Positions 23,750 to 34,757 of a stretch of DNA of 37,916 nucleotides are shown in pieces (the first letter of the stretch is position 1; each line of letters begins with the position of its first letter). Position numbers and translations under genes: made by a program. Below the pieces are notes generated by a model. The model was not told where the DNA came from and did not search any database. It saw nothing but the letters and a program-made list of their open reading frames with translations. Source of the DNA: an uncultured Bacteroidota bacterium (GTDB lineage: Bacteria; Bacteroidota; Bacteroidia; Chitinophagales; LD1); NCBI GenBank assembly GCA_903889265.1, contig CAISWS010000029.1, forward strand, positions 1 to 37,916. The letters are read 5' to 3'.

Positions 23750-25672
23750 GTGAAACGCTTTTGCGCAGCCATTCTTCTTCTTGTTATAGGCCAATTTTCT
23801 TTTGCGGGTAACGGCGAGTCTTCCAGGGTTTTAGTCCACACACTCAATTATTTAAGTCAGGATTACGCTGGGGCCGTAAAAGACGGTAAAATTATAAGCC
23901 AGAGCGAGTTTAAAGAAATGAATGAGTTTGGCGAAACTGCCATTCAGGAATTGAAAGAACTGGCCCCTACCTGGACCCCGGCCGATTCATCCAACATCAG
24001 CGCCATGGTTTACCAGTTGGATAGCCTGATAAAACAACATGCGCCCTTCGAAACTGTATCTGCCCTTTGTATTAAAACCCGGGATAAGGTAATTGCAGCA
24101 TCAGGTTTAAAAATTACACCCACTGTTTACCCCAGTATTGCCAATGGCAAAATTGTTTTTAAAACCGAATGCGTTAAATGCCACGGTGCCGAAGGTTTTG
24201 GCGATGGCGCCGAGGGCGTTGGCCTGAACCCACCACCGCGCAACCTGCACGATGAAGATAAGATGCGGGTACTGTCGCCATTTTTTGTTTTCAATACGGT
24301 AAGGTTAGGGGTTGAAGGAACGGGTATGAAATCGCACCCGATGCTGGAGGATAACGAGGTATGGGATGTAGCTTTTTATGTGCTATCGTTAAGATACGGA
24401 CAATTTAAAAACGACCCTTATTTAAAAGAAGATGCCACCAAAGCCCTGCTCGACTCGCTGACTGTTGACACAGTTTCTACCACCAGCGATGAGGATTTTC
24501 TGAAAGCCTATAATATTACCGACAGCACTAAGGCAAAACTGCTTTTAGCTGCCATACGGCTTAACCAGCCCAAGCACCATAGTAACGATTTTATTACCAC
24601 TGCTATTAAATACCTGGACGGCGCCATGGACCTTTACAACCAGGGCAAATTTACCGAGGCTTATCAGCTATCAACATTGGCATACCTTGAAGGTATTGAG
24701 CCAATAGAAATGCAGCTTAAATCAAACGACCCGCAGTTAATGAGCCAGCTTGAACAGCAAATGCATTTTCTGAGCCAGATGATGAATGCTCACAAACCGG
24801 CGGCCGAAGTAAGCGATTCATTAATGGCTGCAAAAACCTCCATTGGTGTTGCTGCTAAACTGATTGATAAAAAAGAATATTCGTTCTGGCTGGCTTTACT
24901 AATGGCCATGTCTATTCTTTTGCGCGAAGGGCTGGAGGCATTCCTGGTTATTATGGTAATTCTCTCCATCCTTAAAGCAAGCGACCTGAAAGGTGCCACC
25001 ATATGGGTACACGGTGGCTGGATACTGGCTATTCTGGCCGGTTGTGTAATATGGATGGTAAGCGGACACCTGATAGGCAATCAGGTTGAGCACATGGAAC
25101 TGATGGAGGGCGTTATATCGCTGTTTGCAGTGTTTATGTTATTGTATGTGGGTTTCTGGCTGCATGGCAAAAGCGAGATTGGCAAGTGGAAAGAATACGT
25201 AGGCAATAAAATGAAAGGCGCTATTAAAAACGAAAGCATGATTGGCCTTGGCAGCCTTTCGTTTTTTGTAGTATTCCGCGAGGTATTTGAATCCGTACTG
25301 TTCCTTTCAGCGCTTAATATTGAAGCTGCCGGTAAACAAAGTAACGCCATTGTATTAGGTGTTATTATTGCCTTTGTAATAGTAATAGTACTGGCTGCAT
25401 TGCTGCTTCAGTTCTCAGCCAAGTTACCTATACCTAAATTATTTAAAGTATCCTCCATTGTAATGAGCATCCTCGCTGTAATCCTGGCGGGCAAGGGAGT
25501 TCACTCATTACAGGAAACCGGCTGGTCTCCTATCCACAGCTTCCCCGTAATGCGATTGGAACTGATTGGTGTTTTCCCTACTTTGGAAACCTGCCTGGCC
25601 CAGGGTGTTATTCTACTAATCCTGGTTTTTGTTTGGAATGCAACGGGATTGATTAAGAAGAAAGCAAAGTAA
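23750..25672 (+). CDS. Cytochrome c - FTR1 family iron permease fusion
   Basis: The 640-residue protein starts at GTG (no nearby in-frame ATG) with a signal peptide ending near SFA-GNG. Residues about 125-225 form a class I cytochrome c domain: KTECVKCHGAEGFGDG gives heme site C141-V-K-C144-H145, with a later Met (GMKSHPML) as possible axial ligand. A helical linker follows to about 375. The C-terminal half is an FTR1 permease with about seven membrane helices and both iron-binding REXXE motifs, R392EGLE396 and R510EVFE514. FTR1 moves ferric iron coupled to ferrous oxidation; the cytochrome domain may take the electron. Database entries of this architecture exist. The operator at 23706 suggests iron- or metal-dependent control. 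Confidence 0.92.
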   Translation: MKRFCAAILLLVIGQFSFAGNGESSRVLVHTLNYLSQDYAGAVKDGKIISQSEFKEMNEFGETAIQELKELAPTWTPADSSNISAMVYQLDSLIKQHAPFETVSALCIKTRDKVIAASGLKITPTVYPSIANGKIVFKTECVKCHGAEGFGDGAEGVGLNPPPRNLHDEDKMRVLSPFFVFNTVRLGVEGTGMKSHPMLEDNEVWDVAFYVLSLRYGQFKNDPYLKEDATKALLDSLTVDTVSTTSDEDFLKAYNITDSTKAKLLLAAIRLNQPKHHSNDFITTAIKYLDGAMDLYNQGKFTEAYQLSTLAYLEGIEPIEMQLKSNDPQLMSQLEQQMHFLSQMMNAHKPAAEVSDSLMAAKTSIGVAAKLIDKKEYSFWLALLMAMSILLREGLEAFLVIMVILSILKASDLKGATIWVHGGWILAILAGCVIWMVSGHLIGNQVEHMELMEGVISLFAVFMLLYVGFWLHGKSEIGKWKEYVGNKMKGAIKNESMIGLGSLSFFVVFREVFESVLFLSALNIEAAGKQSNAIVLGVIIAFVIVIVLAALLLQFSAKLPIPKLFKVSSIVMSILAVILAGKGVHSLQETGWSPIHSFPVMRLELIGVFPTLETCLAQGVILLILVFVWNATGLIKKKAK

Positions 25673-25883: not shown

Positions 25884-26645
25884 TTAATTCAAATACCGGA
25901 ACATTCCACCAACATGCGCAGCCAAAGTATCAGCCAGCACAGGCACATCACTGGTATTGGTAACGGGGTTAGCAGGAATGTTAACCCGCTGCAGCAACTG
26001 GCTGAAATCTGCAATCACATTAACCGTCATTACCTTGCCGCCGGTGGCATTAAATGCTGCGCTATACGGGGCGGCAGAGTGGTCGGGCAGGTTTACGGTT
26101 TCAAGCAGTGAGTCGCTGCCTAAGTGGTAACTGAATGTTTTATTGGGGCTTTGGTGGTTATTGGTGCTGTCGGCCAATCCTTCCACAGCCATAAAAATAT
26201 AGCCCAGGTTATCCGATGAAAAATGCATGGCCGGGCTCTGCGTCACCAGCGGGCCACCGCTATGGCCGGAGGGGTCAGTATGATTATCGGACAGGTTAAC
26301 TCCCACGTTAAACGAAATACTTTTATAGCTACCCGTTGGCACTGTGCCTGCAATCAGGTTAAGGCGGTTATCAGCGGTAACCAGTAAATACCCGGAGTCG
26401 GCGTAAGTGGTACCTGAAGTGCTGGTTAAGGTCAGGTTGGTAATATAAAAAGAGGTGCGGCTGAAAGAAACACTATCACCTGTTGCCGTAGCATAATTTT
26501 TACCTGCCACAATTGAATCGTTTCCGAAGTAGGGATAAATATTTAATACCAGCAAAGAGGTATCAACGCTGTTTTTTTTGCATCCTGCTGCAAACAACAA
26601 CGCAAAAATAAAAGCCAGCACTGCCGGTTTGGTAAAATTCTTCAT
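25884..26645 (-). CDS. MbnP-like lipoprotein, first copy
   Basis: The 253-residue protein has a lipoprotein signal (LFAAGC, lipidated Cys22). The mature domain resembles MbnP, the periplasmic copper-binding protein beside methanobactin genes: LLVLNIYPYFGNDSI, SFYITNLTL, GYLLV, GSYKSISFNVGVN, AMHFSSDNLGYIFMAVEG and FSYHLGSDS occur in the family order. In relatives I remember, the segment before GYI contains a Met-x-Trp-x-Trp motif (GMYWTW); here it is AMHFSSD with no Trp, so the Trp-to-kynurenine copper site is not conserved. It is transcribed away from the plus-strand cluster that contains its paralogue. Metal binding remains a family-level inference. Confidence 0.8.
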   Translation of the reverse strand: MKNFTKPAVLAFIFALLFAAGCKKNSVDTSLLVLNIYPYFGNDSIVAGKNYATATGDSVSFSRTSFYITNLTLTSTSGTTYADSGYLLVTADNRLNLIAGTVPTGSYKSISFNVGVNLSDNHTDPSGHSGGPLVTQSPAMHFSSDNLGYIFMAVEGLADSTNNHQSPNKTFSYHLGSDSLLETVNLPDHSAAPYSAAFNATGGKVMTVNVIADFSQLLQRVNIPANPVTNTSDVPVLADTLAAHVGGMFRYLN

Positions 26646-26820
26646 CCTTAATTATTTATTCAATCTGTTAAAGCGATGCGATGTTAAATATATTTTGGAT
26701 GAAGTTAGTTGAGGATGGCGGATATTAACAGGCTTCCCTGCTGTCCCCAAGGGGGACGGGACAACTGTTAGGAAGACTTTTTTGCACTTCTTTTTCAAGC
26801 GGAGTGAAGAAAAAAGAAGT

Positions 26821-26856
26821 ATGTCCCCCGCTGGCGGGGGCGTAGGGGGTGGTGAG
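26821..26856 (+). repeat. GC-rich palindromic interspersed repeat, copy 1
   Basis: This 36-bp core begins ATGTCCCCC, contains the hairpin CCCCCG/CGGGGG, and ends GTAGGGGG-T-GGTGAG. Copy 2 at 29756-29791 has the same length and 31 of 36 identical bases. Both cores are directly preceded by an A/T hairpin. Confidence 0.7.
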
Positions 26857-26946
26857 TATCTATGAACTTCGGACACCTCAACTACGAAAACGTCATTTTC
26901 CTAACAGTTATGAGGGGACGGAAAGTGACTGGCTGTTCAAAATCAT

Positions 26947-26977
26947 TTGCATTAATCAAACCCGCACATTACATTTG
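26947..26977 (+). promoter_or_regulatory. Promoter of the Cys/His - Met-rich - MbnP operon
   Basis: TTG (26947-26949), a 20-bp spacer and TACATTTG (26970-26977) match both Bacteroidota elements. Initiation near 26984 would leave a leader of about 8 nt before the ATG at 26992. Confidence 0.6.
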
Positions 26978-26991
26978 CCTTTAACTACAAC

Positions 26992-27363
26992 ATGAAAAAG
27001 CTACTGGCCGTTTTTCTTGCCTTCAGCATCATCAGCCAAAACCTGGTGAATGTGGCCATTGGCATTTATTATCACGTAAACAAAGCATACATCAGCCAGC
27101 AGTTATGCGAAAACCGCAGCAATCCGCAAATGCATTGCAACGGGCATTGCTACTTATCAAAACAATTGCAGAAAGCCGAACACGGCGAAAAGCAATCGGC
27201 GCAGCTGATTAAAGAGAAAGAAGAAATTGTAGTTAATCAGTCCGAAAATCTTCCCGGCCGTTATTTTCCGGTAGTTAAAGTTGAAGTATTCCGCACGCTT
27301 ACATCCTCACTTTATATTTCTTTTTGCCCCCAGTCCCTTATCAAACCACCGGCAACCGCCTAG
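26992..27363 (+). CDS. Small Cys/His-rich membrane-anchored or secreted protein
   Basis: The 123-residue protein has an N-terminal hydrophobic segment (residues 3-27). A compact cluster follows: C39-ENRSNPQ-M47-H48-C49-NG-H52-C53, then YLSKQLQKAEHGEK. The spacing of three Cys, two His and a Met looks like a soft-metal site (Cu+ or Zn2+). Similar small proteins with a CxNKxxPxLHCNGKCYL-like motif are familiar beside TonB receptors and metal genes in Bacteroidota, and are generally annotated hypothetical. It is first in a plus-strand run with short gaps (74 bp to the next gene). No enzymatic domain is seen. Confidence 0.7.
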   Translation: MKKLLAVFLAFSIISQNLVNVAIGIYYHVNKAYISQQLCENRSNPQMHCNGHCYLSKQLQKAEHGEKQSAQLIKEKEEIVVNQSENLPGRYFPVVKVEVFRTLTSSLYISFCPQSLIKPPATA

Positions 27364-27437
27364 TTACGGAATCTGTATTTAGCGGGCTAAGCTATTTGGC
27401 CGCTTTAAGATTTGTTGGTTTGATAAATTAAAAAACT

Positions 27438-28424
27438 ATGAGACTATTTTTAGTGGCTTTGGCGCTTTTAGCGGTCATAGCCCAAACAAACGCACAGGCA
27501 TGTTGCTGCACAAGTGCCGGGGGCAGTTATTCCATACTGCCTAATATTGATGAGCATATCATCGGCCTGCGCTATACCCACAGCAACTGGAGCTCAACCA
27601 CCTACCCTACCATGAATATGAACATGGATGGAATGAACATGAGCATGATGAGCGGAGGCCTGCCTACCGTTGAGAATATGAATACTTTCGACCTGTTTGG
27701 CAGGTTTGCACTACCCAAAAGGTTTTACGTATCGGCGTTTTTACCGGTGCATATTTTGCAGGAAAGCTACACGGGAAGCAATACCCGCGTCGCGGGGCTT
27801 GGCGATGTCAGCCTTCTTTTGCAGTACGCAATTATTGACCCTAAAAAATGCACAGGGCATCCCAGCAAACACCAGTTGCGCCTGGGTGCAGGCATAAAAG
27901 CCCCCACCGGTAAATTTAGTATGACACCCGATGGCATGTTTACTACTGACCTTCAGTTAGGCACCGGCAGCTGGGACTTTCTGTTTAACGCCGTATACAC
28001 CTATCGTTATAAACAGTTTGGTTTTAATCTTACGGCCTCTTACAAAAAGAACCTTACCAATGCCGATCAGTTCCGGTTTGGAGATAAGTTACGTGGCGGC
28101 CTCGAGGCATTTTACATCGTTAAATTGCCCAAGTCAGTATCTGTTATGCCTAAAATAGGTACCCATTACGAGTATGCTTTTGACAACGTAAACGCGGGCG
28201 AAAAATTAACCTACACCGGCGGCCAGAATTTATATGCCGATGCGGGCTTCGATATTTATTACAAGAATTTTGCATTTTCTATGGCTGTATCGCCCACCCT
28301 TTATAACGTATATAACTGGATAGGAGAGCCTTTTGAACATTACTCAATTGAAACTGGTATTTATTACAGTTTCTCAAAAATTATTAAACACAAAAAATCT
28401 TCGCAAAATGAAAAACAACTATAA
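27438..28424 (+). CDS. Outer-membrane beta-barrel protein with Met-rich metal-binding segment
   Basis: The 328-residue protein has a signal peptide (cleaved after NAQ). A CCC triplet at residues 22-24 of the precursor starts the mature chain, and a Met-rich stretch follows at 59-71 (MNMNMDGMNMSMM). The rest is made of alternating strands typical of a barrel of the transporter/phenol-degradation MetA type: GLGDVSLLLQYA, LRLGAGIKAPTGKF, LGTGSWDFLFNAVYTYR, ending YSIETGIYYSFSK. Met-rich MxM motifs are classic Cu+ ligands (CopC, PcoA, Ctr). It may be an outer-membrane copper channel or sensor. The 3' end overlaps the next gene by 17 bp in another frame. Confidence 0.75.
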   Translation: MRLFLVALALLAVIAQTNAQACCCTSAGGSYSILPNIDEHIIGLRYTHSNWSSTTYPTMNMNMDGMNMSMMSGGLPTVENMNTFDLFGRFALPKRFYVSAFLPVHILQESYTGSNTRVAGLGDVSLLLQYAIIDPKKCTGHPSKHQLRLGAGIKAPTGKFSMTPDGMFTTDLQLGTGSWDFLFNAVYTYRYKQFGFNLTASYKKNLTNADQFRFGDKLRGGLEAFYIVKLPKSVSVMPKIGTHYEYAFDNVNAGEKLTYTGGQNLYADAGFDIYYKNFAFSMAVSPTLYNVYNWIGEPFEHYSIETGIYYSFSKIIKHKKSSQNEKQL

Positions 28425-29217
28425 ATTTCTCTTTTTAGTCCCTGTTGTTATGCTTGCCTTTTTATTTGGCTGCCGAAAACCGGCCACCACAGCGGCTGCT
28501 CAAAAAGCATTATTCGGCCTGCATTTGCACACATATATTGATACAAACCTGGTAAGTACAAGCTTAACTGATACCGTCCAGTACGGCCAATGGTTCCAGG
28601 ACCATAACCAAAGATGGATGAATATTACCAACGCCAGCATCTACATTTCAAACATTGGCATTCATAGCTCTACTACAGGGCAATGGTATAACCTCCAGGG
28701 TTCAGTAATGCTAAAACGCATCGAAAATGAGCAATATGCCATTGACAGTGTGCCGGTCGACAATTACGATAATGTCAGGTTCACCATCGGCCTGGGTTCT
28801 GCTTTAAACAACAATCCTCCCAGCTATTATAGCGGTTCAGGCATTCCGGTGGCCGATAGTGTTTTAACTGCTTCGGAAAATATTATGTATGCTAACCCGG
28901 GATATTACTTTTTATATCTCACAGGTTACGCAGGCACCACATCTGGACATAGTAATCCCGTTCCATTCTCTTATCAACTTGCAGGCGACACATTCCAGGT
29001 GTCGCCACCGTCCGCCAGCCAGAACAATATTTTCCCGATTATACCTAATGTACCAGGTGCCCAATACGTTCATATCATTTTCGATTATGGTAAATTACTA
29101 CAGTCATTCCCAATTACAGCGCCGGTCAATTTAAAAACCACTACACCAACGCCGCAACTGGACAGCATTCCCGGCATTATCCGTTACGAATGCGCCACAC
29201 CTGGCAAGGATTGCTGA
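28408..29217 (+). CDS. MbnP-like lipoprotein, second copy
   Basis: The start at 28408 (269 residues) gives a lipoprotein signal (MLAFLFGC, Cys22); an upstream frame from 28333 lies wholly within the preceding gene and has no signal. The domain follows the MbnP-like order: LFGLHLHTYID, ITNASIYISNIGIHSS, YAIDSVPVDNYDNVRFTIGLG, IMYANPGYYFLYLTGYA, FSYQLAGD and VHIIFDYGKLLQ. As in the first copy, the Trp-containing motif remembered from relatives is absent (IMYANPGYY). The two copies are clearly diverged from one another. It is third in an operon with a Met-rich outer-membrane protein, so copper or another soft metal is the likeliest ligand (inference). Confidence 0.8.
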   Translation: MKNNYKFLFLVPVVMLAFLFGCRKPATTAAAQKALFGLHLHTYIDTNLVSTSLTDTVQYGQWFQDHNQRWMNITNASIYISNIGIHSSTTGQWYNLQGSVMLKRIENEQYAIDSVPVDNYDNVRFTIGLGSALNNNPPSYYSGSGIPVADSVLTASENIMYANPGYYFLYLTGYAGTTSGHSNPVPFSYQLAGDTFQVSPPSASQNNIFPIIPNVPGAQYVHIIFDYGKLLQSFPITAPVNLKTTTPTPQLDSIPGIIRYECATPGKDC

Positions 29218-29246
29218 AGTTGTATTTTTAAAACTAGATTTGTAAA

Positions 29247-29663
29247 ATGTTCAATATAGGTCGCGGAGTAATTTTGCTGGGTCTGCTTTGGGTGGTAGTA
29301 CTTTCCGGTTGTCAAAAAGACAAGACCCCAACAGGCAGCACATGTACCACCTGCTCCGCGACCTCTTTTAAAACAGATATCATTCCCATTCTTAATCAAA
29401 ACTGTGCAACCAGCACGGCTTGCCATCAGGGCTCTTTCGCGGCCAACGGGCATTTGAACCTGGATAGTGCTGTGGCTTATGCCCAAATTACAGCTGCCGG
29501 CACCGGATACATCATTGATAGTAATGCCAACAACAGCATAGTTTACGATGAATTGGCATCACCAACCAATGCCGGCACCCACATGCCCATTGGCATTCAG
29601 TTAGACCAATGCACGGTTCAAAAAGTATATTGCTGGATACAGCAAGGAGCGCTCAATAACTAA
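29247..29663 (+). CDS. Cytochrome c-like lipoprotein with non-canonical heme motif
   Basis: The 138-residue protein has a lipoprotein signal (VVLSGC, Cys22). A C33-TT-C36 pair precedes the heme region IIPILNQNC53ATSTAC59H60, where two cysteines five residues apart replace the usual CxxCH. The C-terminus, HMPIGIQLDQCTV...YCWIQQGALNN, is typical of Bacteroidota small cytochromes (axial Met in MP, final W-I-x-x-G-A-x-N-N). Related sequences often read NCAxSGCH (CX3CH). It probably carries electrons in the periplasm for the MbnP-like/metal operon, possibly as a counterpart of the MbnH cytochrome. Heme attachment with a CX5CH site is uncertain. It lies 29 bp after the MbnP-like gene. Confidence 0.75.
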   Translation: MFNIGRGVILLGLLWVVVLSGCQKDKTPTGSTCTTCSATSFKTDIIPILNQNCATSTACHQGSFAANGHLNLDSAVAYAQITAAGTGYIIDSNANNSIVYDELASPTNAGTHMPIGIQLDQCTVQKVYCWIQQGALNN

Positions 29664-29992
29664 CCGTTTAAGCTGATTTTAAAGCAACTAACTTTTAGTG
29701 TTCGAAACCTTTAAAATGCAGGCCTGATACAATTTTCGCAATGCGAAAATTGCCAATGTCCCCCTATGGAAGGGGCGTAGGGGGAGGTGAGAATTGTGCC
29801 GCATAAAATAACTGAATTATGAAAGGCCGCGTGTTTCCAAAATTAATGGCTTTTAACCCATACTTTGATGCAACTTTACCAGAGGTTTAACAAACTTTAC
29901 TTTTAGTGGCCGGCTTGCTAATGTTAAACTCTGAATCCTTCTAACAGTCAAATTCGCATTATTTAAAGTTTGTTTTTATCTTTATTACAACA
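29664..29992. other. Intergenic region after the metal operon
   Basis: These 329 bp hold the second copy of the GC-rich repeat. No ORF, RNA gene or T-tract terminator was recognised. The last 40 bp contain TATCTTTA near 29975, a possible poor -7 element for the metallopeptidase gene. Confidence 0.45.
29731..29791 (+). repeat. GC-rich palindromic interspersed repeat, copy 2, with A/T hairpin
   Basis: A perfect hairpin, CAATTTTCGC-AAT-GCGAAAATTG, comes first, followed by the 36-bp core (29756-29791): ATGTCCCCC, a variable centre, then GGGGCGTAGGGGG-A-GGTGAG. Arrangement, length and orientation equal copy 1 at 26786-26856, although the A/T hairpins differ in sequence. Confidence 0.7.
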
Positions 29993-31804
29993 ATGGGCAA
30001 ATACTTTTTACTCCTTTTAACAGCATTAATTTTTGTGGGTCCGGCAGTTGCCCAAAAAACAGGTAACGGCCCGGTAAATGCGCAATATGCTGCTGCAACC
30101 TGCAAAGCTTCTTTTACCAAATTCAAATTTGCCGGTGAGAATAATGCTACAGAAATTCAAAAGCTTTTACAAAGCCGGATTGAGAACCTGCAAAATGAAA
30201 ACGTTACGTTAAAACTTACTTACGTAACCCAAAGCCTTGCGGGCTATCATTATTCCTTTACCCAGCTTTATCTGGGCATACCTGTTTACCAATCTGAAAT
30301 AAAAATAAATATTGACAAACAGAATATTGTTCATTCCATTTTCGATAACTCCTATAATACCAGGGGCTGGAATCTATCAGTACCCGCTAACATCAGCAAC
30401 GCAGTTATAGCAATCAATCCTAAAACCGGAGACCCGGTAATTGCGGTTTTAAGTATTGAGCAAAACCATCTTGAAACTGTAACTGTTAACGGTATAATTA
30501 TTTTTCAGCGCGATGTAAATTCTTATTATCAGCAGCAGGATTCAACAGTAATAGGAAAAGTTTTTTTTCCTGACCCGTTAACAAGTTCCCGGCATCTGTT
30601 TACCGATACCGCATCCATAACACCAACGGATTCCACACCGGTTGTAGTGCTATATGGTAATAACAACGGGGCTGATGAGCCCTGGATGGATGCCCAGCAG
30701 TTGACGGTAAGTTTTAAAGCCAACTACAGCGATAGCGTTTTTACCCTTTCAAGTCCGTATGTGCTGGTAACCAATTACGATACCTTTCCTCCTAATACGC
30801 CTCCTGCCATCTCAACCAACGGGCAGTTCAATTTTAACCGTTCTCAATCAGGGTTTCAGGATGTAAACGCTTTTTATCATATCAGCCGCCACCGGGATTA
30901 TGTAAGCGCGCTTGGTTTCAACTGCGCCGATTCAATAGTATGGATTGATACACATGCACTTTTTGAGGACAACTCTTATTTTTCTCCGGGGGATTATCCG
31001 AGGAGAATTTACTACGGAATAGGCGGCGTACCCGATGCAGAAGATGCCGATGTGGTAGTTCACGAATATTGCCACTCACTTTCGTATAACTGCGCCCCTG
31101 GCAGCAATGTAGGCCTGGAAAGAACCAGCCTTGACGAGGCCTTCTGCGATTATAATGCAGCCGCTTATTCAAAAGCCATCAGCACGTTTAACGACACCTG
31201 GGTTTATAACTGGGATGGCCATAACCAATACTGGCCGGGCCGGGTAGTAAACTCGGAGATGACGTATCCTGCTGATTTGGGCGAAAACATTTATACCAAC
31301 GGCCAGATGTGGTCGGCAGTGTTATTTAACCTGAATGGTGATTTGGGCCGCGGGATTACAGATAGCCTTATTTACCAGACCCATTACAGCTATGCTCAAA
31401 ATATCACCATGGCCCATGCCGCCACACTATTAATCGATGCCGATTCATTACTGTTTAATGGCGCGCACTACTGCGAAATTTACGGACGTTTGCTTCAACA
31501 TGGCTTTGTGAGCCCGCTTGCCAATGGTTGCGCACCGCTGGCACCCCAGGGTATTCAAACAGTTGCTGACGATAACTTCCGTTTTGCACAAACGGGTAAC
31601 GCCTTTACACTTTACAACACCAATTCAGCCAGCATCCGAATCCGGCTTTTAAGCATTACCGGCCAGCAGATTGCACCAGAGGTTGCTATACAGGATGCCG
31701 TTTATAATTATCAGAATTCCTCCCTGGCTACCGGTATTTACCTGGTGAATGTTATTTCAGATAGTGGGGCTGCTACCTTTAAATGGGTAAATGCGGTTCG
31801 GTAA
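29993..31804 (+). CDS. Secreted gluzincin-type zinc metallopeptidase with T9SS sorting domain
   Basis: The 603-residue protein has a signal peptide (cleaved after AVA), then an FTP/PepSY-like propeptide region (YVTQSLAGYHYSFTQLYLGIPVYQSEIKINID, read in two parts). The catalytic site is H357EYCH361, with the third ligand Glu382 in SLDEAFCDY (ExxxD pattern, 21 residues after the second His), as in M4/M36 thermolysin/fungalysin-like enzymes. GQMWSAVLFNL and ITMAHAATLLIDAD are the downstream M36-like helices. The C-terminal 70 residues (ITGQQIAPEV...SSLATGIYLVNV) form a T9SS sorting domain. It should be exported, activated by propeptide removal and held at the cell surface, where it digests proteins. 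Confidence 0.88.
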   Translation: MGKYFLLLLTALIFVGPAVAQKTGNGPVNAQYAAATCKASFTKFKFAGENNATEIQKLLQSRIENLQNENVTLKLTYVTQSLAGYHYSFTQLYLGIPVYQSEIKINIDKQNIVHSIFDNSYNTRGWNLSVPANISNAVIAINPKTGDPVIAVLSIEQNHLETVTVNGIIIFQRDVNSYYQQQDSTVIGKVFFPDPLTSSRHLFTDTASITPTDSTPVVVLYGNNNGADEPWMDAQQLTVSFKANYSDSVFTLSSPYVLVTNYDTFPPNTPPAISTNGQFNFNRSQSGFQDVNAFYHISRHRDYVSALGFNCADSIVWIDTHALFEDNSYFSPGDYPRRIYYGIGGVPDAEDADVVVHEYCHSLSYNCAPGSNVGLERTSLDEAFCDYNAAAYSKAISTFNDTWVYNWDGHNQYWPGRVVNSEMTYPADLGENIYTNGQMWSAVLFNLNGDLGRGITDSLIYQTHYSYAQNITMAHAATLLIDADSLLFNGAHYCEIYGRLLQHGFVSPLANGCAPLAPQGIQTVADDNFRFAQTGNAFTLYNTNSASIRIRLLSITGQQIAPEVAIQDAVYNYQNSSLATGIYLVNVISDSGAATFKWVNAVR

Positions 31805-31848
31805 ACTTCCTTTTTGCTAGAATTAACATCAGCGTAATCAATAGATCT

Positions 31849-31856
31849 TAATTTTG
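31849..31856 (+). promoter_or_regulatory. -7 promoter element for the His-rich protein - TonB receptor pair
   Basis: TAATTTTG matches TAnnTTTG and ends 9 bp before the ATG at 31866, which would make the mRNA almost leaderless. No -33 TTG is seen at the right distance. A TTG start at 31854 inside this element is unlikely. Confidence 0.4.
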
Positions 31857-31865
31857 CCGCTATCG

Positions 31866-32204
31866 ATGAAACGTGGTAAGTTTTCTTTTTTAAGGTTTAC
31901 GCTTCTTTGGTCCCTGACGGCGGTGTTTTTATACTCTGCTTCTGTTCAGGAAATCCATTACCTTTTTGTAGACCATCATACCGAGGTAAACGAACATTGC
32001 CACAATCACCTGCACGCCCATGTAAATCATGTTGAGTGTAACTTGTGTAAAATTGAGTTAAGCTCATTTTTACAAAGTCCTTGCCTGGACAATTCTGCAA
32101 ATCCCCCATACTTAAAGTCAACAGATATTTTTGCAATTAGGAATGTAACGCTTCATGCCGGATATTCCTCTATATCTCCCCGCGGCCCTCCCTTTAATGC
32201 ATAA
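31866..32204 (+). CDS. Small His-rich membrane-anchored protein beside the TonB receptor
   Basis: Starting at the ATG at 31866 gives 112 residues: a basic N-terminus and one hydrophobic helix (about 9-24), then a His-rich stretch HYLFVDHHTEVNEHCHNHLH (31-50) and AHVNHVECNLCKIEL (51-65). The combination of nine or more His with a CxxC pair in 35 residues indicates a metal site, Zn2+ or Cu+/Cu2+. HEC.LC-like small proteins are often found next to metal-related TonB receptors in Bacteroidota. It lies 102 bp upstream of the receptor gene on the same strand. Possible roles are metal buffering or sensing; no family was identified with confidence. Confidence 0.65.
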   Translation: MKRGKFSFLRFTLLWSLTAVFLYSASVQEIHYLFVDHHTEVNEHCHNHLHAHVNHVECNLCKIELSSFLQSPCLDNSANPPYLKSTDIFAIRNVTLHAGYSSISPRGPPFNA

Positions 32205-32306
32205 CCGCAGCTTACTTCATTCATTGATATTGTACTGTTGTGAGCTTTGAGGCATTGCGCCATTCTGATTGAATTGCAATTATAAATTTCAAAAGATTTA
32301 TTGAAC

Positions 32307-34757
32307 ATGAAACATTTAAGCTTTTTCATTTCCCTGCTGCTATGGTCCGCAACTTCATTTGCGCAAAACAGCATACAGGGAACTGTTTACGATAAAGACA
32401 CCAAAGAAACCCTGCCCGGTGTAGCAGTTTACATACCCGACCTTAAAGTAGGCACTGTTACAGATACCGCCGGCAATTTTTCGTTCGTGAATATCTCCAG
32501 GGGCAAATTTTTACTTGAAATAAAGTTTATTGGCTACGCCTCTAAAGTACTGACCGTTTCAACTACCGATGTTGCGCCCTTACAAATATACCTGTCGCAA
32601 TCTGCCGGTGAATTGCAGGAAGTAGTGGTAACCGGCGTTTCAAAAGGCACTGAAATACGCCGTAGCTCTGTGCCCATTGTTGCTATCGACAAAGATTACC
32701 TCGTTACCAACCTGGCAAGTAATGCTATTGATGCTATTACCAAAGTGCCCGGTGTTACTGCGGTTACAACCGGCCCCAATATTTCAAAACCCTATATCCG
32801 CGGGCTTGGCTTTAACCGTATACTAACCTTATTTGACGGCAACCGGCAGGAAGGCCAGCAATGGGGCGATGAGCACGGCATTGAGGTTGACCAATATAGT
32901 ATTGAACGCGTGGAAGTGATTAAAGGCCCCGCCAGCTTAACTTATGGCAGCGACGCCCTTGCCGGTGTAGTAAACCTTATACCCACCCAACCTGCGCCCG
33001 AAGGAACTTTAAAAGCCGATATTACCACTAACTATGCCACCAATAACCAGGAAGTGGGCGGCTCGGGTATGGTGGAAGGCACCAAAGACGGCATAGACTT
33101 TTTAGCCCGTATTTCTCATAAACAGGCTATTGATTATGAGGATAAAATTGATGGAAGGGTTTTCGGTACCGCTTACAGCGAAACCGACGGCAGCGGTTCC
33201 CTTGGCATACACCGTAAATGGGGATTTTCGCATATCAGTTTTTCTGCCTTTAACGATCTGCAGGAAATACCCGATGGCAGCCGCGATAGTGCTACGCGGC
33301 AGTTTACCCGGCAAATAACCGAAATAGATACACTGCGCCAGATAGTTTCGCAGCACGACCTTAACAGTTATAAAATTGAAAAGCTGCACCAGCACATACA
33401 ACACTACAGGGTGTATGCCAACAATAATTTTTTGCTGGGCGAAGGCGGCTCGCTGGAGGTGAACCTGGGTTACCAGTACAGCCAGCGGCAGGAGTTTGCC
33501 CACCCGGTTTTGTACACCATACCAGGGCTTTTTCTTCAACTCAACACGTTTAACTACGATTTCAAATACCACATGCCCGAAATTAAAGAGTGGAATTTTA
33601 TGCTGGGGATTAATGGCATGTACCAGGTAAACAAGGTTACTAACGGAACTGATTTTGTAATACCATCCTACAACCAGTTTGATATTGGCCCTTTTGCTGT
33701 GGTAAAAAGGAGCTTTGGCAAATTTGACCTGGAGGCCGGTGTGCGCCAGGATTTCCGCATTTTTAATAATCAACAGTTATACACCAAACCAAACCCAACT
33801 ACCGGGTTCGATATGCCGGTAACCGGTGCAGACACTGTGGGGGCATCAAAAGTATTCTCCAACTACCATGCACTTTTTCAGGGTATTTCTGGTAGCCTGG
33901 GCGCAACTTACAATGTCACCAGCCAGCTTTGCATTAAGCTGGATGTGGCCCGGGGTTTCCGCGCACCTAATATCGCTGAAATATCGGCCAACGGTGTACA
34001 CCCCGGCACTAATATTTACCAGCTGGGCAACCCAAATTTTAAACCGGAGTTTAACGTACAGCCCGATTTGGGCATTGCCTTTAACTCAAAATACGTGGTG
34101 CTTTCGGCAGATGTATTCTATAATTACATTCAGAATTATATCTATAACCAAAAGCTCCTTTCGGTACACGGCGGAGATTCGGTTATTGTGCAGGGTAATC
34201 AGACTTTTCAGTTCCAATCTGCCCGCGCACAGCTTTATGGTTTTGAATTCAGCCTGGATATACACCCGGTTAAATCGCTGCACTTTGATAACGGTTTATC
34301 GCTGGTATACGGTGATTTTTTAGGCAAAAAAGGCACCGCAGTTTCTGATAGCGAGCGCTACCTGCCTTTGATTCCGCCATTGCACGGAACATCAGAAGTG
34401 CGATATGATTTCAGTATTAAGCCTGCACATATGTTAAACGCGTTCGCCAAAGTGGGTATCGTTTATTACACCACTCAAAACCGGGTCTACTCCGCCTTTG
34501 GTACTGAAACACCTACCCCCGGTTATGTATTATTAAATGCGGGTATAGGCAGCAGTTTTACCAATAAAAAAGGAAAAACCATTGTAAGTGTTTACATACT
34601 GGGCAGCAACCTGCTTAACACCGCTTACCAGGACCATTTAAGCAGGTTGAAATATTTTGAATTTTACCCCAACAATCCAACCGGCCACGACGGTATTTAT
34701 AACATGGGTCGTAATGTTTCCGTTAAGCTTGATTTCCCTTTAGAGTTTAAGATTTAG
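32307..34757 (+). CDS. TonB-dependent receptor, probable heavy-metal or metallophore uptake
   Basis: The 816-residue protein (ATG at 32307 chosen over TTG at 32301) has a signal peptide ending FAQ. It has an N-terminal carboxypeptidase-regulatory-like domain (IQGTVYDKDTKETLPGV ... LLEIKFIGYASK, residues about 20-100), a TonB-box-like EVVVTG, a plug (PGVTAV, YIRGLGFNRIL, VEVIKGPASLTYGSDALAGVVN) and a 22-strand barrel ending KLDFPLEFKI. The plug segment QQWGDEHGIEVDQ resembles the GDEHG loop of zinc/copper-type receptors (ZnuD-like). There is no partner SusD, so glycan uptake is unlikely. The upstream His-rich protein and the nearby MbnP-like operon support metal or metallophore transport. Substrate unproven. 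Confidence 0.88.
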   Translation: MKHLSFFISLLLWSATSFAQNSIQGTVYDKDTKETLPGVAVYIPDLKVGTVTDTAGNFSFVNISRGKFLLEIKFIGYASKVLTVSTTDVAPLQIYLSQSAGELQEVVVTGVSKGTEIRRSSVPIVAIDKDYLVTNLASNAIDAITKVPGVTAVTTGPNISKPYIRGLGFNRILTLFDGNRQEGQQWGDEHGIEVDQYSIERVEVIKGPASLTYGSDALAGVVNLIPTQPAPEGTLKADITTNYATNNQEVGGSGMVEGTKDGIDFLARISHKQAIDYEDKIDGRVFGTAYSETDGSGSLGIHRKWGFSHISFSAFNDLQEIPDGSRDSATRQFTRQITEIDTLRQIVSQHDLNSYKIEKLHQHIQHYRVYANNNFLLGEGGSLEVNLGYQYSQRQEFAHPVLYTIPGLFLQLNTFNYDFKYHMPEIKEWNFMLGINGMYQVNKVTNGTDFVIPSYNQFDIGPFAVVKRSFGKFDLEAGVRQDFRIFNNQQLYTKPNPTTGFDMPVTGADTVGASKVFSNYHALFQGISGSLGATYNVTSQLCIKLDVARGFRAPNIAEISANGVHPGTNIYQLGNPNFKPEFNVQPDLGIAFNSKYVVLSADVFYNYIQNYIYNQKLLSVHGGDSVIVQGNQTFQFQSARAQLYGFEFSLDIHPVKSLHFDNGLSLVYGDFLGKKGTAVSDSERYLPLIPPLHGTSEVRYDFSIKPAHMLNAFAKVGIVYYTTQNRVYSAFGTETPTPGYVLLNAGIGSSFTNKKGKTIVSVYILGSNLLNTAYQDHLSRLKYFEFYPNNPTGHDGIYNMGRNVSVKLDFPLEFKI

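Follow-up and report, generated by a model that had tools for sequence, protein, structure and literature searches.

The 37,916-nt contig CAISWS010000029.1 of an uncultured Bacteroidota bacterium, the whole of which we call the window, contains two runs of genes, each headed by a small protein: CysHis (26992-27363) and HisP (31866-32204). The most surprising result of our analysis is that both of these proteins, judged by their sequences, resemble metal-sensing leader open reading frames (ORFs). We think it likely that they head two separate metal-limitation operons and that each leader, while still a nascent chain, senses metal itself. A first-pass annotation had instead taken the two small proteins for metal carriers on a single copper route from the outer membrane to the periplasm. 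That interpretation is partly supported, as described below, but the position of the two proteins at the operon heads, their ruler length and their C-terminal PP fit leader ORFs of the CruR/CutF type better than carriers. Two of the supposed metal-binding proteins are thus probably regulators.

The window belongs to a 5.1-Mb assembly in 527 contigs, whose close relatives with names are Bacteroidetes and Chitinophagales metagenome-assembled genomes. All of the features that the annotation had described are present where it placed them. The first group (26992-29663, plus strand) comprises, in order, CysHis, a barrel protein (Barrel) and two lipoproteins, an MbnP and a small cytochrome-like one (CytL), with a 74-nt gap, then an overlap and then a 29-nt gap between successive genes. 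The second group (31866-34757, plus strand) consists of HisP and a TonB-dependent receptor, separated by 102 nt. A further MbnP gene (25884-26645) lies on the minus strand and points away from the first group.

HisP is rich in histidine and, as annotated, carries a CxxC sequence, the putative metal motif CNLC (32037-32048). Exactly 44 residues separate it from RGPP (32181-32192), a putative arrest motif just before the end of the protein. The same spacing is found in 22 of 22 members of the HisP family, all of which have RGPP, with 2 to 6 residues remaining past the PP; two further, divergent members have a 43-residue spacer. Both cysteines and the entire R-G-P-P are invariant in an alignment of the family (15/15 sequences), whereas the 44 residues between them have a mean pairwise identity of 19% and a minimum of 5%. 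Because the length of the spacer is kept while its sequence varies, it behaves as a ruler.

A ruler of this kind is known from CruR (bp2923, a DUF2946 protein) of Bordetella pertussis, which leads cruR-bfrG/crtA-bp2921 with the arrangement CXXC-45-RAPP before a TonB receptor gene and in which copper relieves arrest, leading to Rho-dependent termination (PMC9426467). The arrest was later shown in vitro, and RGPP is among the strongest arrest motifs (PMC12992588). Like CruR, HisP is small and exported, heads an operon whose next gene encodes a TonB receptor, and has CxxC, a spacer of about 45 residues (44, with RGPP for RAPP) and R[AG]PP near its C-terminus. It also resembles the RAPP/RGPP arrest peptides (PMC12992588, PMC10987492) in its C-terminal RGPP and in being a small exported upstream ORF (uORF) before a TonB receptor. 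Unlike CruR, HisP has a His-rich region before CxxC, RGPP rather than RAPP, a ZnuD-like receptor behind it and a place in another phylum. We considered whether HisP belongs to DUF2946 and rejected the idea, as it has no Pfam match at E values up to 1, DUF2946 (PF11162) included, and that family is nearly absent from Bacteroidota (1/99 over the cut-off). HisP looks like an almost exact copy of the CruR ruler in a protein with no recognizable resemblance to DUF2946.

The receptor gene follows HisP directly in 16 of 17 loci, the 17th being cut by the contig end, and a lipoprotein of about 180 aa often lies behind the pair. Across the phylum, a TonB receptor comes next after HisP relatives in 7 of 8 called cases, with the window's own counted. 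Relatives from outside this taxonomic family, elsewhere in the phylum, finish with RGPP, RAPP or RSPP; where CxxC is present, the spacer is 43-45 residues long. Three other relatives (L236, L237 and L240, each at about 1440-1850) have histidines and RAPP or RGPP without CxxC, and a fourth (L244, also at about 1440-1850) ends in RSPP and stands before an ATP-binding cassette (ABC) transporter gene; these four are possibly leaders for other metals.

CysHis (123 aa) has no Pfam or NCBIfam match. It has an N-terminal transmembrane segment, contains LCENRSNPQMHCNGHC, as the annotation had noted, and ends in KPPATA. Within its putative metal motif CxNx7CxGxC (CENRSNPQMHCNGHC, 27106-27150), residues C39, N41, C49, G51 and C53 are invariant (12/12), and its C-terminal Pro-Pro (27346-27351) is the proposed arrest point. 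Within the taxonomic family, 29 of 30 genomes have a CysHis member; in a phylum-wide sample the count is 74 of 198 genomes, or 41 of 103 genera. Together with a conserved downstream gene order, this distribution places the features singled out in the first-pass annotation beyond chance. A scan of named genomes yielded at least 586 confirmed stretches; the 80 of these that we analysed include Pedobacter, Chitinophaga, Dyadobacter, Runella, Spirosoma, Flavobacterium and Algoriphagus.

All 105 members of the CysHis family have PP within the last 16 residues, compared with 10 of 404 other small ORFs, and their tail consensus is [ILV][FL][HKRQ]PP. The distance from the last cysteine to PP averages 66.2 residues (standard deviation 2.9), and there is no consensus from the metal motif region to PP. 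CysHis thus looks like a second, phylum-wide leader class with a longer ruler and a different tail.

The gene after CysHis shares its strand every time (98/98), at a median gap of 96 nt. What follows is Barrel-MbnP-MbnH, MbnP-MbnH-Barrel, an OprC-type receptor, another TonB receptor or Sco. When we looked at the next three same-strand genes, 49 of 83 distinct cases had MbnP, MbnH, an OprC-type receptor or Sco among them, whereas 4 of 212 control genes from the same contigs did; these counts are approximate because the sample was drawn with the motif of the CysHis family and the genes were called by a simple script. The OprC-type receptors in this position carry CxxxM and HxM, and for one of them, which we searched, OprC was the only solved protein matched. 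On the strength of these neighbours the operon at 26992-29663 is tied to copper, a link that the annotation had proposed and that is well supported by association.

The family heads other arrangements as well. Runella defluvii (L144) has three tandem leader-MbnP-MbnH units with one Cys/His leader each, and in Chitinophaga, Pedobacter and Spirosoma (L108, L113, L123, L132 and L162) CysHis heads pairs of a TonB receptor and a BNR-repeat protein. The Pedobacter BNR protein contains a Met/His-rich stretch, MKMNHSHGGGGMKMSH.

Both leaders in the window have a Bacteroidetes-type −7 promoter element (TAnnTTTG) 9-14 nt before their ATG: TACATTTG at 26970-26977 (plus strand), 14 nt 5' of CysHis, and TAATTTTG at 31849-31856 (plus strand), before HisP. 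Among CysHis genes, 49 of 99 have this element in the 60 nt before them, compared with 1 of 188 Barrel, MbnP or MbnH genes and 156 of 1203 genes overall; CysHis often has a promoter motif of its own. For the HisP family the element is present over the same distance in 13 of 22 members.

A second group of known leaders provides a further comparison. The CutF-like proteins (PMC9973294) are defined by small size, an export segment, a metal motif and a PP that falls within the last 15 residues; they take their name from Rhodobacter capsulatus CutF, and the list of them includes Bacteroidota. Both of our leaders share with them a length mostly under 150 aa, an N-terminal export segment, a Cys metal motif, a near-terminal PP and a same-strand gene next. 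CysHis itself has fewer than 150 aa, a signal or transmembrane segment, a terminal PP and a same-strand gene within 1000 nt. It departs from the CutF-like proteins in its CxNx7CxGxC motif, its spacer of about 65 residues and its [ILV][FL][HKRQ]PP tail.

Several observations weigh against reading the two proteins as nascent-chain leaders of metal operons. Neither of them matches DUF2946. The tail of CysHis is neither RAPP nor RGPP, which sets it apart from the RAPP/RGPP arrest peptides, and its spacer differs by a few residues between members. The gaps between leader and next gene fold no better than controls (z of −1.95 versus −1.73) and show no excess of stem-loops, so nothing supports a stem-loop of the CutF type; we accordingly rejected a stem-loop that hides the start of the gene after CysHis. 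For 46 of 96 CysHis genes, another gene on that strand stops fewer than 150 nt before the leader begins, and CysHis is therefore not always provably the first gene. Finally, zinc and copper are both in play as the substrate of the receptor behind HisP, and the MbnP association described below comes near to a single evolutionary split.

From the anatomy of the two leaders we infer stalling, the sign of the regulation, the metals and the compartments sensed, as follows. The CxxC of HisP, 44 residues before RGPP, would bind metal just outside the ribosome. With no metal, the ribosome would stall at RGPP and the ZnuD-like receptor would be expressed; with metal present, the stall would be relieved and the receptor turned off. 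A length of about 65 residues is near that of a nascent chain spanning the ribosome and translocon in glycosylation-mapping work. The CysHis ruler would roughly match that span, so CxNx7CxGxC would already be sampling periplasmic copper when the ribosome arrives at the terminal PP. The CysHis class may therefore detect metal on the far side of the inner membrane; a 44-residue chain would reach only just outside the ribosome. CysHis would control the copper-handling set at 26992-29663, in which Barrel would act as a COG4313-type channel with a Met-rich loop, the MbnP lipoprotein, which lacks WxW, as a periplasmic copper binder, and CytL as a redox partner standing in for MbnH.

In Proteobacteria, MbnPH-like genes are likewise found behind CruR homologues (PMC9426467), and a 2025 survey reported copper-related RAPP/RGPP uORFs to be missing from Bacteroidota (PMC12992588). 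The CysHis family, with its different PP ending, may explain why that survey lacked copper leaders in the phylum. We raise as a tentative generalization that Bacteroidota might use two nascent-chain metal rulers: a CruR-like one of 44 residues with RGPP, reading metal close outside the ribosome, and a phylum-wide one of 65 residues with the new, non-RAPP arrest tail [ILV][FL][HKRQ]PP, the latter sampling copper beyond the translocon and controlling, among others, a kynurenine-free MbnP system with a monohaem partner. If the leader reading is true, several hundred unnamed proteins before copper genes would count as regulators, and the difference in spacer length would offer a direct means of asking where a nascent chain meets its metal, in the cytosol or the periplasm.

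The account closest to the first-pass annotation treats the two small proteins as metal carriers in the periplasm or membrane that form, with the barrel, MbnPs, cytochrome and receptor, one import route for copper or a copper-metallophore. The copper-linked neighbours and the Cys, His and Met motifs are what it would lead one to expect, and the two modules do adjoin in the window, in three relatives and on a Chryseobacterium-labelled contig (L148). It leaves unexplained, however, a sequence-free 44-residue spacer, an invariant RGPP and a PP that ends every member, and the receptor resembles ZnuD. The HisP-receptor pair is constant and CysHis heads copper genes, but the two modules seldom go together: apart from L148, 4 of 30 family genomes have the receptor module close to the copper operon, and in most family genomes the two are on separate contigs or far apart. 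As a general claim the unified copper-import route is thus rejected, and we regard the carrier account as unlikely.

The receptor behind HisP (32307-34757, plus strand) has the Pfam Plug and beta-barrel domains plus an extra N-terminal CarboxypepD_reg domain, and its best match in the PDB is ZnuD (4rdr), the zinc receptor of Neisseria. A plug histidine sits at the same place in both proteins, within PDHA in ZnuD and DEHG here. The GDEHG reported by the annotation is indeed in the plug region, which lacks the ACxxxM expected of an OprC-type site (CxxxM and HxM). The receptor differs from ZnuD in carrying the extra N-terminal domain and in scoring far below the ZnuD family cut-off (82 bits against a threshold of 950 for NF038289; 82-123 bits among its relatives). 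Against the OprC-type profile TIGR01778 it likewise stays below the cut-off, at 47 bits versus 472. The annotation had favoured copper as the metal; copper is possible, but zinc is at least as likely because the best solved relative is ZnuD, and the receptor may take zinc.

This resemblance to ZnuD also lends something to a different account, in which the leaders are metal-responsive uORFs that both serve zinc or a general thiol or metal stress and the association with copper is indirect. In one relative the genes that run on behind the receptor include a cation-diffusion facilitator, and some HisP relatives have histidines and no CxxC. Nevertheless, the genes that follow CysHis (MbnP, MbnH, OprC-type receptors and Sco) belong to copper-linked families, and we consider it improbable that both leaders answer to zinc or stress. 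Lipoproteins of an Ig-like/DUF4625-like type are shared by the two kinds of operon, standing behind the receptor pair in one case (L216, 9635-10497) and behind the barrel in another (L048, 8401-9297).

Within the copper-linked operon, Barrel (27438-28424, plus strand) has an N-terminal CCC and the Met-rich stretch MNMNMDGMNMSMM recorded in the annotation. Its AlphaFold2 model (mean predicted local distance difference test score, pLDDT, of 78) is a beta-barrel, and Foldseek matched the model to FapF (5o67, E = 7e-13) and to a COG4313 channel (4rl8, 4e-12) at 14-15% identity, which is a similarity of fold only. Barrel therefore models as a COG4313/FapF-like outer-membrane channel, from which it is distinguished by its Cys cluster, its Met-rich loop and its copper-linked operon. 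In the model the Met-rich stretch forms a low-confidence loop between the first strands, and in the usual orientation this loop would be extracellular.

CytL (29247-29663, plus strand) carries a degenerate c-haem motif, C-x5-C-H, in keeping with the annotated cytochrome-like lipoprotein. Among its relatives the motif is CX4CH or, in one that also matches PSCyt1 and Cytochrome_CBB3, the canonical CXXCH; the assignment of CytL as a small monohaem-cytochrome-like protein rests on the PSCyt1 matches of its relatives and on the CXXCH relative. Its structure model is weak (pLDDT 69) and gave no significant PDB match, although all five listed matches hold haem c.

Both MbnP-like lipoproteins claimed by the annotation pass the PF20243 cut-off of 27 bits, with 50.6 bits for the copy in the operon (28408-29217, plus strand) and 97.5 bits for the divergent copy. 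Neither contains WxW, and against TIGR04052 (MbnP_like_WxW) one copy scores 46 bits versus a cut-off of 140 and the other has no match. The known MbnP-MbnH pairs (PF20243/TIGR04052 with TIGR04039) share the MbnP fold family with the window copies, whose partner is instead CytL, next to the operon copy, or none, alongside the divergent one. The annotation's remark that MbnH is absent is true of the window, where we found no MbnH di-haem enzyme; in many relatives, however, MbnH holds the operon slot that CytL takes here.

MbnH is thought to oxidise a tryptophan of the MbnP WxW to kynurenine for copper binding, and kynurenine is described in the literature for MopE and CorA. WxW is present in 39 of 41 MbnP copies beside MbnH and in 0 of 12 beside CytL. 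In a tree built with the WxW columns left out, the CytL-paired copies and both window MbnPs fall on one side of a branch of 15 rows (Shimodaira-Hasegawa-like approximate likelihood ratio test, SH-aLRT, 99), which includes rows labelled Weeksellaceae, Spirosoma and Chitinophagaceae. One row of this branch, L099_7, is labelled MbnH-adjacent; its neighbour is probably an FTR1-cytochrome protein caught by the cytochrome part of the profile. A comparison of independent pairs had only two pairs to draw on and thus no power; the association of WxW with MbnH, resting on about one evolutionary split, is a description and not a statistical test.

By its sequences, the branch that lacks WxW has probably dispensed with both MbnH and the kynurenine tryptophan, and it makes testable whether copper handling by MbnP needs kynurenine. 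That CytL replaces nothing, with ordinary window MbnPs served in trans by MbnH from the two other MbnP genes of the genome, each of which is beside an MbnH gene, is very doubtful, since both window copies and all other CytL-paired copies lack the WxW tryptophans and form a separate clade.

A few further features surround these genes. No dedicated metallophore genes were seen. Between the two groups lies a protein with a type IX secretion system (T9SS) sorting signal and a weak likeness to M36/fungalysin (29993-31804); a T9SS-sorted, M36-like protein also adjoins MbnP genes in two relatives (L035, 7958; L041, 2882). Upstream of the locus, an FTR1-type iron permease is fused to a c-type cytochrome domain (23750-25672). 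At the edge of the window, a long collagen-like repeat protein occupies 2-2887 and is open at the window start.

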